Shown: positions 17,114-24,855 of the stretch, piece after piece | Numbering within the stretch: position 1 is the stretch's first letter | Layout: every line of letters starts with the position of its first letter | DNA from: Acidimicrobiales bacterium | GTDB lineage: Bacteria > Actinomycetota > Acidimicrobiia > Acidimicrobiales > MedAcidi-G1 | Assembly (NCBI GenBank): GCA_016845305.1 | Contig: JAERSW010000007.1 | Span: 1 to 40,800 of the forward strand | DNA: 40,800 bases | Direction of reading: 5' to 3' | Translations under genes and position numbers: made by a program | The notes under the pieces: model-generated | Databases searched by the model: none | What the model was told of the DNA's origin: nothing | The model's input: only the letters and a program-made list of their open reading frames with translations

Positions 17114-17128
17114 GACCCGGGACGGGTC
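17114..17128 (-). terminator. Short hairpin between LysM and AcnX genes
   Basis: GACCCG (17114-17119) and CGGGTC (17123-17128) form a 6-bp stem with a 3-base loop, touching the LysM stop codon. There is no T-tract. It could attenuate read-through into the AcnX genes or protect the mRNA end. Confidence 0.25.
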
Positions 17129-17735
17129 AGCAGTACGGGTTCTCCTCGGGCGCCTCGTCCTCGGCGGGGACCTCGCCGTCGATGACGAGTTCCTGGCCGA
17201 CGAACAGCAGGTTGGCGTCCTCGATGGCGTTGCGGGCCATGATGTCCTCGACGGTGGTGTCGTGGCGCTTGGCGATCTTGGAGAGCGAGTCGCCGGCCTG
17301 GACGGTCACGATGAGGACGTCGCCCGCGGCGTCGTCCTCGTCTGCGGGCTCGGCGTCGGGGTCGGTGAGCAGGATGACCTGGCCCACGAAGATCTGGTTC
17401 GGGTCGCACATCTCGTTGAGCCGCACCAGGGCGTCGACCGTGGTGCCGTACCGCTTGGCGATCTTGGAGAGCGAGTCGCCCTCCTCGACGGTGACCGACT
17501 CGGGCACGTCCGACGGAGCCTCGGCGGGCGCCTCGGTCGTGGTCGCCGGAGCCTCGTAGGTGGCCTCGGTGGTCGTGGTGGCCGGAGTCTCGGCAGGCGC
17601 CTCGGTGGAGGTGGCGAACATCTCGGTGGTGGTGGTCTGGACGACCACCGGCTCATCCCCGGAGCTCCCGCAGGCGGCGGCCAGCAGGGACACGGCGACG
17701 ACGACGGCGATGGGTGCTGCGGGAATCCGGCGCAT
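17127..17735 (-). CDS. Lipoprotein with two LysM domains
   Basis: 202 residues from ATG 17735. The signal peptide (MRRIP, hydrophobic core) ends in the lipobox LAAAC, so the protein should be lipid-anchored on the outer face of the membrane. A Thr/Glu/Ala/Pro-rich spacer (about 33-78) precedes two LysM repeats (about 80-124 and 141-187), both containing the repeated GDSLSKIAKR. LysM modules bind N-acetylglucosamine in peptidoglycan. No catalytic domain is present, so a structural or tethering role is likely. A TATGCT box six bases before the ATG indicates a leaderless mRNA. Confidence 0.9.
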   Translation of the reverse strand: MRRIPAAPIAVVVAVSLLAAACGSSGDEPVVVQTTTTEMFATSTEAPAETPATTTTEATYEAPATTTEAPAEAPSDVPESVTVEEGDSLSKIAKRYGTTVDALVRLNEMCDPNQIFVGQVILLTDPDAEPADEDDAAGDVLIVTVQAGDSLSKIAKRHDTTVEDIMARNAIEDANLLFVGQELVIDGEVPAEDEAPEENPYC

Positions 17736-17741
17736 GGCCGG

Positions 17742-17747
17742 AGCATA
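17742..17747 (-). promoter_or_regulatory. Leaderless -10 box of the LysM lipoprotein gene
   Basis: TATGCT on the minus strand, six bases before ATG 17735. One of the best TANNNT matches in the window. Confidence 0.6.
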
Positions 17748-17788
17748 GGTCCGGCACCCTGCCCCGCCGGGTACCCCTCGGGCCGTCC

Positions 17789-18837
<1,049 letters not shown>

Positions 18838-18841
<4 letters not shown>

Positions 18842-19308
18842 GCGTCGCCCTCCGGGCCGGTCCAGATCGGATGGGTGTCGGGGCGGTCGCCGGGATGGGA
18901 CTCGATGTCGGCGTCGAGGACGTGGAAGTCCGACGCCTCGCCGGTGTAGATGGCCAGCACGGCGGTGAGGCCGGTGGGCTGGTCGATCGTGCCGGCGGCG
19001 ACCGAGATGGTCGACGGCTTGTCGGTGGCCATCCAGAACATCGTGGCGCCGCACCGGTTGCAGAAGCCGTACCGGGTCTCCTCGGTGCGGTCGTACCAGG
19101 ACAGCGTGGCGTCCGACTCGAGGTGCAGGTCGTCGCGCAGGGTGGCGGTGGCCGCCATGTGGTGGCCGGTGATCCGCCGACACGGCGTGCAGTGACAGTG
19201 CACCACCGGGCGCAGATGGCCGGACAACCGGTACCGGACGCCGCCGCACTCGCAGCGGCCGGTCGCCCGTGGCCGCTCGGCCCCTTCGTGGTTCGGATCG
19301 TCGTCCAT
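18838..19308 (-). CDS. GFA-family zinc protein (glutathione-dependent formaldehyde-activating enzyme family)
   Basis: 156 residues from ATG 19308. Three zinc-binding cysteine clusters of the GFA fold: CECGGVRY (about 19-26), CHCTPCRR (about 38-45) and FCNRCGATMF (about 82-91). Members of this family are often called S-(hydroxymethyl)glutathione synthase, but most have unknown function, and actinobacteria generally use mycothiol, so formaldehyde-glutathione chemistry should not be assumed. The stop overlaps the mtnA start. The ATG shares its CATG palindrome with a possible divergent start of the EamA gene. Confidence 0.85.
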
Positions 19309-19314
19309 GCGCGC

Positions 19315-19320
19315 ATCCTC
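19315..19320 (-). promoter_or_regulatory. Candidate leaderless -10 box for the GFA-mtnA operon
   Basis: GAGGAT on the minus strand, six bases before ATG 19308. A weak match (A2, T6), but with the standard spacing. Confidence 0.3.
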
Positions 19321-19348
19321 GCGCGCCCCCGTGCGTGGTGGTGGACGG

Positions 19349-20263
19349 ATGCGATGGTGGACTGGGCCGGTGCCGTACCAGCTCGCCGCCCTCCTGGCCG
19401 CCACGTCGTGGGCGTGCAGCAGCCTGATCGCCGCCGAGCCGGTGCGCCGACTCGGTGGGCCCCGGTTCTGCCGGCTGCGGATGCTGTACGTGAGCGGGAT
19501 GCTCCTCGTGCTGGCCACGGCGACCGGCGGCTGGTCGACGCTGGACGGAGGCGATCTGGGCCTCCTGGCCGTGTCCGGGCTGGTCGGCCTCCTGCTCGGC
19601 GACCTGGCCCTGTTCACCGCCATGGCCCGCATCGGGCCCCGACGGACCTCGGTGCTCTTCACGTCCAACGCTCCGCTGGCCGCCGTCGGCGGCGTGCTGC
19701 TGTTCGACGAGTCGTTCGCCCCGTGGGCGCTGGTGGGCGCGGTCCTAACCGTGGTCGGCATCGCCCTGGCCGTCAACTACGGGTCCCGTAGCGGCACCCA
19801 CACCGACGTCTTCGAACGGATCGAGGGGTCGTTGACGGCCGGTGCGGTGTGGGCGGGCATCGGCGCGCTGGGCCAGGCTCTGGGGGCACTGGCCGCCAAG
19901 CCCGTGCTCGACGACGGCGCCGACACGTTGGCCGTGGCCGCCACCCGCGCCGTGATCGCCACCGTGGCCCTGTGGGTCCTGGCCCGGCCCGGGGACCGCC
20001 TGGCCCGACCGGCCCGACGGGGCCCACTGCTGCCCGGCGACCACCTGCGGCTGGCGGCCAGCGCCTTCATCGCCATGGTGGTCGGCATGACCCTGCTGCT
20101 GTGGGCATTGGGGCGGGGTGACACGGGGGTGGCGACGATCCTCTCGGCCACCACGCCGGTCATCCTGCTGCCCCTGCTGTGGCTCCGCCTCCGTCAGGTT
20201 CCGGCCCCCGGCGCCTGGCTGGGCGCCATCCTCACCGTGGTCGGCACCGCGCTGCTGCTCTGA
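19349..20263 (+). CDS. EamA/DMT-family transporter
   Basis: 304 residues from ATG 19349 (318 if the ATG at 19307 is used, 297 from a GTG at 19370). About ten hydrophobic spans in two EamA repeats, with short polar loops and a longer cytoplasmic loop (around YGSRSGTHTDVFERIEG) between halves, as in drug/metabolite transporters. An SD-like GGTGG precedes 19349. The substrate is not predictable. Divergent from the GFA-mtnA pair and convergent with the flavoprotein gene. A degenerate 20-base tandem repeat copies its stop codon region. Confidence 0.87.
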   Translation: MRWWTGPVPYQLAALLAATSWACSSLIAAEPVRRLGGPRFCRLRMLYVSGMLLVLATATGGWSTLDGGDLGLLAVSGLVGLLLGDLALFTAMARIGPRRTSVLFTSNAPLAAVGGVLLFDESFAPWALVGAVLTVVGIALAVNYGSRSGTHTDVFERIEGSLTAGAVWAGIGALGQALGALAAKPVLDDGADTLAVAATRAVIATVALWVLARPGDRLARPARRGPLLPGDHLRLAASAFIAMVVGMTLLLWALGRGDTGVATILSATTPVILLPLLWLRLRQVPAPGAWLGAILTVVGTALLL

Positions 20264-20311
20264 CGGTCGCGCTCCTGCCCTGACCGGGCATGTACCTCCT
20301 CTGACCGATCA
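20251..20311. repeat. Degenerate 20-21 bp tandem repeat over the EamA stop codon
   Basis: Three units at 20251-20270, 20271-20290 and 20291-20311, each with a core like CTGCTCTGACGG, CTGCCCTGACCG or CTCCTCTGACCG, so TGA recurs at 20261, 20281 and 20302. The last unit runs into the convergent gene's stop codon. Confidence 0.55.
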
Positions 20312-21085
20312 GGCCTCTCCGTCGAGGACGACGAGGACCTCGTCGAGGGCCTTGCGAGCCAGGTCGGGGACGCGGACGCCGGGCAGCGGATGCCCGACCG
20401 GGAACATGACGAAGGGCCGTTCGTTCTCGGGACGACCGAGGATGGCCCGCAGGAAGGCCATGGGCGACGGCGTGTGGGGCAGGGTGGCCAGGCCCATGTC
20501 GTGGACGGCGGCCACGAAGAGCCCGGCGGCGATCCCCACGCTCTCCTTCACGTAGTAGTTCTTCCGCGTCGAGCCGTCGTCGCGGAGCTCGTAGCGCTGC
20601 TCGAAGAGGACGACCAGCCAGGGGGCGACGTCGAGGAACTCCTTGTGGTGGTCGGTGCCCAGCGGGGCGAGGGCCTCCTGCCACTCGGCGTTCATCCGGT
20701 TCTCGAGGTAGTTGGTGCGCTCCTCGGCCTCGGCCGCCTCGCGGATACGAGCCTTCACGTCGGGGTCGGAGACGGCCACGAAGGTCCACGGCTGCTTGTG
20801 GGCCCCCGACGGTGCCGTCGACGCCGCGGCCACCGCCGCCTCGACCAGGGCGCGGGGCACCGGATCGGGGCTGAACATGCGGACGCTGCGACGCCGCTCG
20901 GCCTGCGACCGGAAGGCCTCGGCACGGCGGCGCATCTCGCCGTCATCGACGACCTCGTGGTCGTGCTCCACGAAGGGGTGGCGGTCGGCCAACTCGGGCG
21001 ACGGGTACGGGTGCCGGTAGAGGGGCTCGCCGGGATCCCCGTCGGGGTGCTGGTCGGGCTGCTCGTCGGGGTGTTCGTCGGGCAT
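20309..21085 (-). CDS. Iodotyrosine-deiodinase-like FMN nitroreductase
   Basis: 258 residues from ATG 21085. Nitroreductase fold with FMN-phosphate arginines in RRRSVR (64-69), TAPSGAHKQPWTFV (90-103), and C-terminal GRPENERPFVMFPVGHP. The resemblance to vertebrate iodotyrosine deiodinase, as I recall that sequence, runs along the whole domain. The substrate-gripping triad Glu-Tyr-Lys (human E157, Y161, K182) is matched by E122, Y126 and K148. T205 in PHTPSP may be the residue near flavin N5. That predicts reductive dehalogenation of halotyrosine or a similar phenol rather than generic nitroreduction. The first 20 residues are a Pro/Asp/His/Gln low-complexity tail. A single-gene unit between EamA and tRNA-Leu. 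Confidence 0.85.
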   Translation of the reverse strand: MPDEHPDEQPDQHPDGDPGEPLYRHPYPSPELADRHPFVEHDHEVVDDGEMRRRAEAFRSQAERRRSVRMFSPDPVPRALVEAAVAAASTAPSGAHKQPWTFVAVSDPDVKARIREAAEAEERTNYLENRMNAEWQEALAPLGTDHHKEFLDVAPWLVVLFEQRYELRDDGSTRKNYYVKESVGIAAGLFVAAVHDMGLATLPHTPSPMAFLRAILGRPENERPFVMFPVGHPLPGVRVPDLARKALDEVLVVLDGEA

Positions 21086-21091
21086 GGCCCC

Positions 21092-21097
21092 AGTCTC
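21092..21097 (-). promoter_or_regulatory. Candidate leaderless -10 box of the deiodinase-like gene
   Basis: GAGACT on the minus strand, six bases before ATG 21085. The same hexamer occurs at the same spacing before the crotonase-like gene at 24088. It sits just downstream of the tRNA, so read-through from the tRNA promoter is an alternative. Confidence 0.35.
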
Positions 21098-21102
21098 GCC
21101 GG

Positions 21103-21186
21103 TGCCCGGGACAGGATTCGAACCTGTACGCCCCGAAGGGCCGCGGGGTTTAAGCCCGCTGCGTCTACCAGTTCCGCCACCCGGGC
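21103..21186 (-). tRNA. tRNA-Leu, anticodon UAA
   Basis: An 84-base class II tRNA. The 7-bp acceptor stem GCCCGGG/CCCGGGC closes 21186-21180 with 21110-21104. The anticodon stem GCGGG/CCCGC encloses CTTAAAC (anticodon TAA). The long variable arm folds on GCCC-TTCG-GGGC, as in leucine tRNAs, and the T-loop is GTTCGAATC. The discriminator base is A. The genome reads CCG after it, so the CCA end is not encoded. Confidence 0.95.
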
Positions 21187-21198
21187 GTGGCCCGACCC

Positions 21199-21204
21199 AC
21201 GGTA
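21199..21204 (-). promoter_or_regulatory. Candidate -10 box for tRNA-Leu
   Basis: TACCGT on the minus strand, 12 bases before the mature tRNA 5' end. No convincing -35. Confidence 0.4.
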
Positions 21205-21243
21205 GCCAGCGGCGTTCGGCCCGGCGATTCGTCCCGTGATCCG

Positions 21244-21612
21244 TCAGGCGGCGAGGGCGGGTTCGTCGACGGCCAGCCAGAGGGCGGCCCGGACGGTGTC
21301 GGCCCGGATCGACTCCAGGCGGTTGGCCACCACGATCCCCTCCACCATGTCGGCCACCACGGCCGCCCACGGTCGGTCGCGGACCACCACCGAGACCACG
21401 GCCGACCGCCCCCGACGACGGATGGTCCGCTGGACGCCGTCGAGGCCCGGTGGGCTCCGGAAGGTCGGCACCTCGAGGCCACGGAGGCGAGAGGCCTGCC
21501 CCAGGGCCCGGGCCGTCTCGGCGAACCGGATCGAGGCCGACCGGCACGGCACCGACGGCCCAGGGGTGGGCCTGACTCCCTGTCCGTTCCCCTGTCTGTT
21601 CCTCCGCTCCAT
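21244..21612 (-). CDS. Small hypothetical protein
   Basis: 122 residues from ATG 21612 (an ATG at 21621 adds three). I do not recognise the family. The first 20 residues are Asn/Gln/Arg/Pro-rich with atypical codons, so the true start may be further in, for example the GTG before PCRSASIRF. From there on, codon use is as GC-biased as the neighbours and the composition is that of a small alpha/beta domain: GLEVPTFRS, RGRSAVVSVVVRDRPWAAVVADMVEG (two strands) and a final helix. No signal peptide, membrane span or cysteine cluster. It lies upstream of tRNA-Leu on the same strand. Confidence 0.55.
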   Translation of the reverse strand: MERRNRQGNGQGVRPTPGPSVPCRSASIRFAETARALGQASRLRGLEVPTFRSPPGLDGVQRTIRRRGRSAVVSVVVRDRPWAAVVADMVEGIVVANRLESIRADTVRAALWLAVDEPALAA

Positions 21613-21668
21613 GGTGCACATCTTCGCGACCACCTGTGACAGTCGGTCCTCCCCACACACCCGACGGC

Positions 21669-21674
21669 CATACT
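21669..21674 (+). promoter_or_regulatory. Candidate leaderless -10 box of the nuclease gene
   Basis: CATACT followed by six bases and GTG 21681. It supports that GTG as start. Confidence 0.45.
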
Positions 21675-21680
21675 CGCGGG

Positions 21681-22637
21681 GTGCAGGACCCGACCGCGGC
21701 CGCCGGCCCCGAGCCGCTGAACCCCGCCCAGCAGGCCGTCCTCGACGAGTTGGGCGCCTCGGCCGAGGATCGCCCCGAGTTCCCCGACGACCTCCGCCAC
21801 CACCTCCGCGCCGCCCTGGAGACGGCGGTCGAACCCCACCTCGACGACCTGCCCGACGGGGTGGACCTCTACCTCAACAAGCACCGCCTGGCCATGGTCC
21901 ACGGCTGCGAGGCCCGGTTCCTGGCCGAGGAGGACGAGCCCTTCGAGTGGCGGGTACCCACCGCCCGCGGCTCGGTCGTCCACAAGGCGGTCGAGTTGGC
22001 CGTCAACTGGCGGGGCCCGGTCGAGCCGCCCCTCCTGGTCGACGAGGCGCTGGCCAGCCTGGAGGCCGACCAGAAGAACCTCAGCGACTGGCTCCAGGGC
22101 ATCGGCGAGGCCGAGCGGGCCGAGCTGCGCTCCCAGGCCCTCGATGCCTTCAGCAAGTACCTGGAGTGCTGGCCGCCGCTGAAGTCGGCGTGGCGACCGG
22201 TGACCGAGAGCCGGCTCCGGGCCGAGCCGTGCGGGGGGCGCCTCGTGCTGGACGGCAAGGTCGACCTGACCCTCGGCACGGCCCGCGGGCTGGTGGCCGG
22301 CAAGGTGATCGTGGACCTCAAGACCGGGGGCACCAACGCGGTCCACCGCGAGGACCTCCGCTTCTACGCGTTGGTCGAGACGCTGCGCATGGGCGTCCCA
22401 CCCCGGATGCTCGCCTCCTACTACCTGGACCAGGCCACCTTCGTGTCCGAGGTGGTCACCGAGGACACCCTGCGGGCCACCGTGCTCCGGGTGGCCGACG
22501 GGGTGGACCGCCTCGTCGGGCTCCTCCACGGCGACCGCACGCCGTCACGGGTCCCGGGCCCACCGTGCCGCTGGTGCCCCGCACGGGCCGACTGCGCCGA
22601 GGGGCAGGCCTGGCTGGAGGAACGGGACGAGGCCTGA
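21681..22637 (+). CDS. PD-(D/E)XK nuclease (RecB/Cas4-like) with probable 4Fe-4S cluster
   Basis: 318 residues from GTG 21681. The active-site set of RecB-family nucleases is present: H101 in RGSVVHKAVE, D195 in LDGKVDL, D212 and K214 in VDLKTGG, and Y229 in the following DLRFYAL helix (QxxxY position). One cysteine before the nuclease core (C76 in HGCEARF) and three at the C-terminus (C296, C299, C305 in CRWC and RADC) reproduce the C...C-x2-C-x5-C pattern of AddB, Cas4 and related enzymes, which staples the fold with 4Fe-4S. No helicase or cas gene is adjacent, so it is a stand-alone nuclease, probably in DNA repair. Confidence 0.87.
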   Translation: MQDPTAAAGPEPLNPAQQAVLDELGASAEDRPEFPDDLRHHLRAALETAVEPHLDDLPDGVDLYLNKHRLAMVHGCEARFLAEEDEPFEWRVPTARGSVVHKAVELAVNWRGPVEPPLLVDEALASLEADQKNLSDWLQGIGEAERAELRSQALDAFSKYLECWPPLKSAWRPVTESRLRAEPCGGRLVLDGKVDLTLGTARGLVAGKVIVDLKTGGTNAVHREDLRFYALVETLRMGVPPRMLASYYLDQATFVSEVVTEDTLRATVLRVADGVDRLVGLLHGDRTPSRVPGPPCRWCPARADCAEGQAWLEERDEA

Positions 22638-22665
22638 CCGCTCAGACGGTCCCGCCGCCCCACGG

Positions 22666-22685
22666 GCCCGCCACCCACCGCGGGC
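22666..22685. terminator. Bidirectional hairpin between convergent genes
   Basis: GCCCGC (22666-22671) and GCGGGC (22680-22685), a perfect 6-bp stem with an 8-base loop, in the gap between the nuclease and MFS stops. No T-tract on either side. Confidence 0.4.
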
Positions 22686-22690
22686 GCCGG

Positions 22691-24007
22691 TCAGCCGGCG
22701 TCGAGGAGGCGGAACCGGCCGGTGGCGTTCAGCCACCACCCGCCGACCAGGACGACCAGGCCGGCCACGGCCACCACCGGCCGGGGTCCGAACACTGCGA
22801 TGGCCCAGCCCATGAGCAGGTTGGCGAACGGCGACACGCCGAGCACGCCCATCAGGTAGATCGCCATGACCCGACCCCGCCGGGCATCCTCCACCTGGAG
22901 CTGCACGGTCGAGTTCAGGTTCGACGCCGACGCCAGGTGCATGGCCCCGATCAGGCCGAGGCCCACGAAGCCCATCCACAGGGTGGGCGCCAGGGCGAAC
23001 AGGGCCAGGGCCACGCCGTACCCGCAGGTGGCGAGGAACTGGATGCGGGACCGGCGTAGGCGGCTCAGCTCGCCGGCCACCACCGGTGCGGCCAGCAGCG
23101 CCCCGATCCCCTGGGCCGATCCCAGCATCCCGAACCAGAACGGCGAGACCTCGAAGACCTCCTCGGCGAAGACCACGATCTGCTGGACCACCGGTTGGCC
23201 CATGGTCGAGACCAGGGCCGTGGTGAGGATGGCCGTGCGGATGCCCGGCGAGTCCAGGACGTACCGGATCGACTCCCGGTACTGGGCCATGACCGAACCG
23301 TCGGTCGCCGCGCCGGCCGACCCGCCATCGTCGGACCCGGCGCCGGAGCCGGGACCTGTGTCGGGACCCGCGTCGGGACCAGCGCCGGGCCGGAAGAGCT
23401 CGTCGGCCCGGATCATGGCCAGGGTGGTCAGGATCGGCCCGTAGGCCATGGCGGCCACGGCGAGCGCCCAGCCGGGTCCCACCGTGCCGATCACGAACCC
23501 GCCGAGGGCCGGCCCCACCGTGCGGGCCGCGTTGAACTGGGTGGAGTTCAGGGTGATGGCGTTGCGGAGGTGCTCTCGGGGCACGCACTCGGCGACGAAC
23601 GACTGCCAGGTGGGCAGCTGGATCCCGTACACGAACCCGCCGACCAGCAGCAGGGCCATCCACGCCCACGGGCTGCGCAACCCGGCCCCCCAGGAGACGG
23701 CCATGGCGGCGGCCAGCACCGAGCACGCCGTGTTGGTGCACAACAGCACCAGGCGTCGGTCGAAGCGGTCCGACACGTGGCCGGCGATCGGGTTGGTGAG
23801 CAGCATCGGGATGAAGGTGGAGAAGGCGGCCGCCCCCACCCAGGCCGCCGACTCGGTGAGCCGGTACACCACGTAGTACGAGGCCACGTACTGGGTCCAC
23901 CGGCCGTTGTTGGTCAGCACCCCACCCAGCCAGAACAGCCGGTAGTTGCGGTATCCGAGCGCCGGGAAGCGCCGGTTCCGCCGCTGCTCCCGGGTCCCGT
24001 CCGACAC
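22691..24007 (-). CDS. MFS exporter (EntS/DUF894-like)
   Basis: 438 residues from GTG 24007. About 12 membrane spans in two halves. The N-terminal FPALGYRNYRLFWLGGVLTNNG and the GHVSDRFDRRLVL loop between spans 2 and 3 are typical of the MFS_3 exporter group that includes enterobactin exporter EntS and many macrolide or metabolite effluxers. The central cytoplasmic loop holds a Gly/Ala/Asp/Pro low-complexity stretch encoded by 12-base repeats (about 23330-23400). The substrate is unknown. The start is supported by a TAGGGT box seven bases upstream. Divergent from the crotonase-like gene over a large inverted repeat. Confidence 0.88.
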   Translation of the reverse strand: MSDGTREQRRNRRFPALGYRNYRLFWLGGVLTNNGRWTQYVASYYVVYRLTESAAWVGAAAFSTFIPMLLTNPIAGHVSDRFDRRLVLLCTNTACSVLAAAMAVSWGAGLRSPWAWMALLLVGGFVYGIQLPTWQSFVAECVPREHLRNAITLNSTQFNAARTVGPALGGFVIGTVGPGWALAVAAMAYGPILTTLAMIRADELFRPGAGPDAGPDTGPGSGAGSDDGGSAGAATDGSVMAQYRESIRYVLDSPGIRTAILTTALVSTMGQPVVQQIVVFAEEVFEVSPFWFGMLGSAQGIGALLAAPVVAGELSRLRRSRIQFLATCGYGVALALFALAPTLWMGFVGLGLIGAMHLASASNLNSTVQLQVEDARRGRVMAIYLMGVLGVSPFANLLMGWAIAVFGPRPVVAVAGLVVLVGGWWLNATGRFRLLDAG

Positions 24008-24014
24008 GCGGCCG

Positions 24015-24020
24015 ACCCTA
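24015..24020 (-). promoter_or_regulatory. Leaderless -10 box of the MFS gene
   Basis: TAGGGT on the minus strand, seven bases before GTG 24007. Confidence 0.5.
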
Positions 24021-24023
24021 GGT

Positions 24024-24060
24024 CCGACCCCTCCCCGGGCCCGCCTCCGGAGGGGGTCGG
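24024..24060. repeat. Imperfect 11-bp inverted repeat between divergent promoters
   Basis: CCGACCCCTCC (24024-24034) and GGAGGGGGTCGG (24049-24060) pair over 11 bp with one bulged G, separated by 14 bases. It lies between the -10 boxes of the MFS gene and the crotonase-like gene, where an operator for both would sit. Confidence 0.6.
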
Positions 24061-24075
24061 GGGTGGGGTCCGTGC

Positions 24076-24081
24076 GAGACT
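24076..24081 (+). promoter_or_regulatory. Candidate leaderless -10 box of the crotonase-like gene
   Basis: GAGACT followed by six bases and ATG 24088. Matches A2 and T6 of TANNNT. Confidence 0.4.
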
Positions 24082-24087
24082 CGGAAC

Positions 24088-24855
24088 ATGAGCGTCCTGC
24101 GAACCGAACGCCGCGACCGCGTGGCCATCCTGACCTTCGACGACCCCGACCGCCGCAACGTGGTCAGCGACGAGATGAACGACGAGCTCCTCGCCGCCTT
24201 CGACGAGCTGGAGGCCGACGAGGACGTCGGTGCCGTCGTCCTGACCGGGGCCGGGCGGGCGTTCTGTGCCGGCGCGGTGCTGGACGACCTGCTCGACGCC
24301 GGATCGGGCGACGCCGACGGCGCCCTGCCCGACATCTACCGGGGCTTCCTCCGGGTGGCCCACACCCCGCTGCCCACCGTGGCCGCCGTCAACGGGGCCG
24401 CGGTGGGTGCCGGCATGAACATGGTGCTGGCCTGCGACCTGGTGGTGGCCGGCCGCTCGGCGAAGTTCGACTCCCGCTTCCTGACCATCGGCATCCATCC
24501 CGGTGGCGGGCACACGTGGCGCCTCCGCAACATCACCGACCTGCAGACGGCGAAGGCCATGGTGCTCTTCGAGCAGATCCTGGACGGCGAGGCGGCGGCC
24601 CGGCACGGCGTGGCCTGGGAGTGCGTGGACGACGAGGCCCTGGTCGACCGGGCGGTGGAGTACGCGGCGAAGGCCGCCGGCCACCCCCGCGACCTGGTGG
24701 CGGTGACCAAGAAGACGTTGCACGACACGGCGGCCATCACCGAGTCGGTGCCGTCGGTGCAGTTGGAGATCGAGCCGCAGGTCTGGTCGATGCGCCAGCC
24801 GGCGTTCACCGAGATGGTGGCGAGGCTGAAGGCCCGGATGGCCGAGAAGGGCTGA
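24088..24855 (+). CDS. Enoyl-CoA hydratase/isomerase (crotonase) family protein lacking catalytic Glu pair
   Basis: 255 residues from ATG 24088, normal crotonase length. The CoA-binding and oxyanion-hole segments are there: RAFCAGAVLDDL (about 57-68) and VNGAAVGAGMNM (101-112). Aligned with mitochondrial hydratase, the two catalytic glutamates are replaced: E144 by N111 and E164 by F131 (KFDSRFLTIG). A simple water addition is therefore unlikely. Other crotonase chemistry (isomerase, thioesterase, decarboxylase) or a non-enzymatic CoA-binding role is possible. It shares a promoter region with the MFS gene and converges on the GNAT gene. No beta-oxidation partner is adjacent. Confidence 0.85.
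   Translation: MSVLRTERRDRVAILTFDDPDRRNVVSDEMNDELLAAFDELEADEDVGAVVLTGAGRAFCAGAVLDDLLDAGSGDADGALPDIYRGFLRVAHTPLPTVAAVNGAAVGAGMNMVLACDLVVAGRSAKFDSRFLTIGIHPGGGHTWRLRNITDLQTAKAMVLFEQILDGEAAARHGVAWECVDDEALVDRAVEYAAKAAGHPRDLVAVTKKTLHDTAAITESVPSVQLEIEPQVWSMRQPAFTEMVARLKARMAEKG

Follow-up and report, generated by a model that had tools for sequence, protein, structure and literature searches.

Described deiodinases and a relative in Acidimicrobiales

Iodotyrosine deiodinase (IYD) is a flavin enzyme that removes iodine from iodotyrosine in the thyroid, and the mammalian enzyme has a membrane anchor. The closest described system is the bacterial IYD of Haliscomenobacter hydrossis (HhIYD; 5ko7, 5ko8, 5krd), which was crystallized with iodotyrosine in 5ko8. 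The mammalian IYD/DEHAL1 is represented by 3gfd, 3tnz and 4ttc. A further entry deposited as an IYD, 6pz0, presumably comes from Thermotoga neapolitana. An excerpt of PMC13078365, citing Phatarphekar, Buss and Rokita (2014), already describes IYD from mammals to bacteria. Among the literature matches listed, no paper title concerned bacterial IYD enzymology. Bacterial IYDs are known, and the gene analyzed here is a well-preserved, expected member of the family, not a new kind of system.

The window is a stretch of 40,800 nucleotides from an Acidimicrobiales bacterium. Its IYD gene encodes 258 residues on the minus strand (20309..21085), from an ATG at 21085 to a stop codon at 20309-20311. Translation of the open reading frame confirmed these coordinates, which had been given in a first-pass annotation made from the sequence. 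The frame is open further upstream, and a 449-residue reading frame starting at a GTG is also listed. The ATG at 21085 is a sensible start because a tRNA-Leu (TAA) gene, located with ARAGORN at 21101..21186 on the minus strand, lies 15 bases before it, and because similarity begins at residues 7-23 in the 46 best-listed loci (L006-L051). The protein belongs to PF00881. We assign it, with a probability of about 0.87, as a soluble FMN-dependent iodotyrosine deiodinase of the HhIYD type, for which sequence and predicted fold suggest dehalogenation of halotyrosine.

Searched against 177,635 distinct PDB sequences, the protein matched HhIYD best (5ko7; E = 1.4e-71, 244 bits). Mouse IYD (E = 7.9e-54) and human IYD (E = 3.8e-50) were also found, the mammalian enzymes scoring 172-186 bits. 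The 6pz0 protein followed at 72 bits, and the highest-scoring non-IYD protein reached 58.8 bits, with the other listed nitroreductase-fold proteins below 60 bits. Identity is 56% to HhIYD (115/206), 45% to mouse IYD (96/215) and 43% to human IYD (92/216). The alignments span the flavin domain, covering residues 39-254 of the window protein against mouse IYD and 32-254 against human IYD. The proposed likeness to the vertebrate enzyme across this domain is thus borne out, at E-values far beyond chance. There is no IYD model among the seven NCBIfam matches of the protein, so the name carries no confirmation from a curated model.

A maximum-likelihood tree of 73 rows separates 60 IYD rows from BluB and nitroreductases with support of 100/99. 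On the IYD side, 56 bacterial relatives join the window protein, HhIYD and two mammalian IYDs. The bacterial rows were picked for their resemblance to the window protein, the alignment (A1) holding a hand-made choice of 56 of 80 loci. The telling point of the tree is that HhIYD and the mammalian enzymes fall on the window protein's side. Two of the 75 aligned rows (L099 and L100), shorter than 140 residues, were dropped from the tree and retained in the residue table. The tree was built without 6pz0 and FbiB, and only the 100/99 split is relied on, the program having flagged long outgroup branches. A phylogeny against BluB and nitroreductases had been named as a check at the outset; it places the protein with the characterized IYDs. 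The 100/99 split argues against a position outside the deiodinase clade.

Substrate triad, FMN contacts and predicted fold

The first-pass annotation identified E122, Y126 and K148 as a substrate triad that generic nitroreductases lack; the first statement is confirmed and the second supported by the rows compared. E122 (codon 20720..20722), Y126 (20708..20710) and K148 (20642..20644, all on the minus strand) align with E153, Y157 and K178 of mouse IYD. The three residues are invariant in 82 of 82 rows, comprising the window protein, the window gene again (L001) and 80 loci. The peptide patterns used to fetch these loci exclude the triad residues, and loci were retained by overall similarity. 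The complete triad is found in 60 of 60 IYD rows and in none of 15 outgroup rows, which are six BluB proteins and nine generic nitroreductases, four of these being paralogues from the own genome. Glutamate occurs in two of the 15 outgroup rows, tyrosine in one and lysine in none; the lid alignment is loose there, with gaps in six of 15 rows at the glutamate column and nine of 15 at the lysine column.

Mouse numbering was set from the FMN contacts R96, R97, S98, R100, P123, S124, T235 and R275 given in an excerpt of PMC3930498. The window protein retains all eight contacts in that excerpt. R65, R66, S67 and R69 lie in codons 65-69 (20879..20893) and correspond to mouse R96, R97, S98 and R100. 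P92 and S93 (20807..20812) match P123 and S124, T205 (20471..20473) matches T235, and R244 (20354..20356) matches R275; all of these codons are on the minus strand. T205 does not discriminate between the groups, as threonine also occupies this position in eight of the 15 outgroup rows. The FMN-binding Arg, Pro and Ser positions of the window protein are also found in the six BluB rows, none of which contains the complete triad.

Comparison with the described enzymes revealed a small number of differences. HhIYD resembles the window protein in the triad, the FMN residues, an HTPSPM motif and the position of the lid. It differs in having threonine in place of S67, and the window protein has a longer N-terminus. 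The mammalian enzymes share the triad and all eight FMN contacts, whereas their wild-type chains have TTPLNC in place of HTPSPM. The N-terminus of the window protein is hydrophilic, with no visible counterpart of the mammalian membrane anchor. In the lid, the window protein has one additional residue in the segment Y126-M131 (20693..20710, minus strand) relative to HhIYD, mouse IYD and human IYD, between the triad tyrosine and a conserved Arg-Met. This segment contains six residues in 42 of the 60 IYD rows and five in the other 18. The longer form is confined to a clade of 44 rows from Actinomycetota, Acidobacteriota and a few other groups, within which L064 and L068 have the short form.

A template-free AlphaFold2 model of the protein has a mean pLDDT of 87.4 and a pTM of 0.84. 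Residues 1-16 have pLDDT below 50. Within the domain, the less certain parts are the lid blocks in residues 121-150 (pLDDT 71, 79 and 85) and the block containing T205 (residues 201-210, pLDDT 73). The model best matches iodotyrosine-bound HhIYD (5ko8), with a Z score of 28.5 and an rmsd of 1.1 Å over 218 residues. The Foldseek ranking agrees, with iodotyrosine-bound HhIYD at the top (TM score 0.97 by target length, rmsd 1.1 Å, 218 columns). Ligand-bound human and mouse IYD gave Z scores of 27.6-27.8, and the best non-IYD chain 18.3. The 6pz0 structure has the same fold (Z 23.5), at 29% identity and an rmsd of 2.0 Å. BluB (2isj) and the FbiB C-terminal domain (4xom) also have the nitroreductase fold, with Z scores of 17.8 and 17.6.

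Halotyrosine-bound entries of HhIYD, mouse IYD and human IYD, with 218-220 residues aligned, outrank entries with FMN alone or 2-iodophenol, with 183-202 residues aligned. This difference in alignment length probably reflects the lid, which is ordered in the halotyrosine-bound entries and appears to be similarly placed in the model. A structure prediction with the lid closed over iodotyrosine had been proposed as a check. The predicted fold is that of a lid-ordered, substrate-bound IYD, but the model is ligand-free and closure itself is not seen in it.

Gene neighborhood and distribution

Of the 60 loci scanned, 11 have a tRNA-Leu gene upstream on the same strand, at a distance of 18 to 105 bases from the matched stretch. 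The tRNA transcript may be the source of the IYD message. Downstream of the IYD gene is a convergent EamA transporter gene, and further out are genes for GFA, IF-2B-like, PD-(D/E)XK, MFS, enoyl-CoA hydratase and acetyltransferase proteins. No operon is seen around the IYD gene in the window. Homologues of the eight nearest window genes tested (17127 to 24855) turn up in 2 to 11 of 80 loci, mostly those of the closest relatives; these counts exclude the window copy L001, flank lengths vary and some contigs stop short. In other branches, the neighbors include nucleotidyl transferase, DsbA-like, HD-domain, thymidylate kinase, short-chain dehydrogenase, TetR, DUF6027 and acyl-CoA dehydrogenase proteins. 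Ten neighbor proteins were annotated, one representative per cluster, from a minority of the neighbor clusters. For two of them Pfam gave no match, and these two may not be genuine reading frames. The annotated neighbors, in the window and in other branches, point to neither halogen nor tyrosine metabolism. Gene context was dropped as a clue to function, the neighbors being poorly shared and none of those annotated hinting at such chemistry.

A separate arrangement was observed in 11 loci, mostly labeled Acidobacteriota (L053, L054, L055, L056, L057, L058, L061, L062, L065, L067 and L074). In these, the IYD gene lies between conserved DsbA-like and nucleotidyl transferase genes on the same strand, each label coming from one annotated representative. 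The three genes possibly form one operon there.

Orthologues, defined by a score of 329.8 bits or more, are present in 28 of 61 genomes, the own genome included. Within the genus, 16 of 17 genomes (own included) have one, as do 10 of 20 from other genera of the family and two of 24 from other families of the order. The one genus genome with no orthologue is 66% complete. At E = 0.001 or better, 56 of the 61 genomes give a match of some kind, most of the weak matches being paralogues. Beyond the orthologues there are three partial pieces (176.6, 154.3 and 85.5 bits), and the other listed matches score 42.1 bits or less. The pieces represent a second copy in two parts in one genome (G022) and a single fragment in another (G026). 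The two parts of the G022 copy (G022:C1:7913-8610) are in different frames, and an intact copy is located elsewhere in that genome. The second copy appears to be a decaying duplicate or a sequencing error. The own genome also contains two divergent nitroreductase-fold genes close together (L002 and L005; G000:C75:43664-45366), whose scores against the BluB model fall far short of its cut-off.

In public records, the best 80 of at least 569 confirmed relatives are, by record title, chiefly from Acidimicrobiia, Acidobacteriota and Bacteroidota. The first-pass annotation had linked the predicted activity to a marine, halogen-rich habitat. The annotated neighbors give no hint of such a link, and relatives are also found in Pontibacter and Flavobacterium records, some of which are non-marine.

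Substrate, alternative readings and cellular role

By analogy with characterized relatives, a mechanism can be proposed for the window protein. Lid closure and chemistry at the flavin N5 are features of IYDs. FMN would be reduced by a cellular reductant, and the zwitterion of a halotyrosine would be held by E122, Y126 and K148. The lid, at about residues 118-148, would then close over the substrate. T205, near the flavin N5, would favor one-electron steps, and the halogen would depart as halide, yielding tyrosine. The first-pass annotation predicted reductive dehalogenation of halotyrosines or of a related halophenol. For halotyrosine this prediction draws good support from the sequence, the tree and the predicted fold, but a halophenol with no amino-acid part is the less likely substrate because the triad is fully kept.

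The main alternative is that the protein descends from IYD, with its triad and lid, but has as its main cellular substrate another amino-acid-like phenol, such as bromo- or chlorotyrosine from marine protein or nitro- or dihydroxy-tyrosine, so that activity on iodotyrosine would be incidental. The one-residue lid insertion typical of the branch is consistent with such a shift, as is the lack of a halogen-related gene among the annotated neighbors of relatives from Actinomycetota, Acidobacteriota and Bacteroidota. However, the triad and FMN residues are unchanged, and the model superposes closely on iodotyrosine-bound HhIYD. We regard this alternative as possible but distinctly less probable than a halotyrosine deiodinase.

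A generic nitroreductase or NAD(P)H:flavin oxidoreductase that is IYD-like by descent only is very unlikely. Membership in PF00881 would fit such an enzyme. Mukherjee and Rokita reportedly described, in the title of a 2015 paper cited in PMC6017928, a single amino-acid switch between dehalogenase and nitroreductase, at what we take to be the threonine equivalent to T205. Threonine at this position is also common in the outgroup. Against this stand the distribution of the complete triad, present throughout the IYD rows and in no outgroup row, the tree and the structure ranking. The chance that the protein is a BluB-type flavin-destroying DMB synthase or an FbiB-type F420 ligase domain is close to nil. 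It does match the curated models for both, at 55.5 bits for BluB (TIGR02476) and 56.9 bits for the FbiB C-terminal domain (TIGR03553), but these scores are far from the cut-offs of 150 and 249.55 bits. In addition, the tree sets five BluB proteins from this order apart in a clade of their own (99/97).

Having weighed these alternatives, we return to the preferred reading of a halotyrosine deiodinase. Its most likely role in the cell would be the return of iodo-, bromo- or chlorotyrosine to the tyrosine pool, as salvage or detoxification, a matter on which gene context is silent. A link to tyrosine catabolism through homogentisate was considered and dropped for the genus. The homogentisate dioxygenase domain PF04209 was not found in the own genome, which is 98% complete. 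Among the 61 genomes of relatives, own included, PF04209 occurs only in G054, a genome with no IYD orthologue. For the HPPD model TIGR01263, the own genome gave only a partial match of 39.1 bits against a cut-off of 277. Entry of the released tyrosine into the homogentisate route is therefore unlikely here, given no PF04209 match and no above-threshold HPPD. A URO-D search of the own genome gave one match, which was uninformative on this question.

A broader view, which we offer as speculative and rather improbable, is that the natural substrate of the long-lid branch in Actinomycetota and Acidobacteriota has moved away from iodotyrosine, perhaps to bromo- or chlorotyrosine or to some other modified tyrosine. 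The gene would then belong to a salvage activity that is widespread in Acidimicrobiia and supplies nothing to the homogentisate pathway. With the gene held by 16 of 17 genus genomes and no operon seen, Acidimicrobiia are a reasonable place to test halotyrosine salvage.
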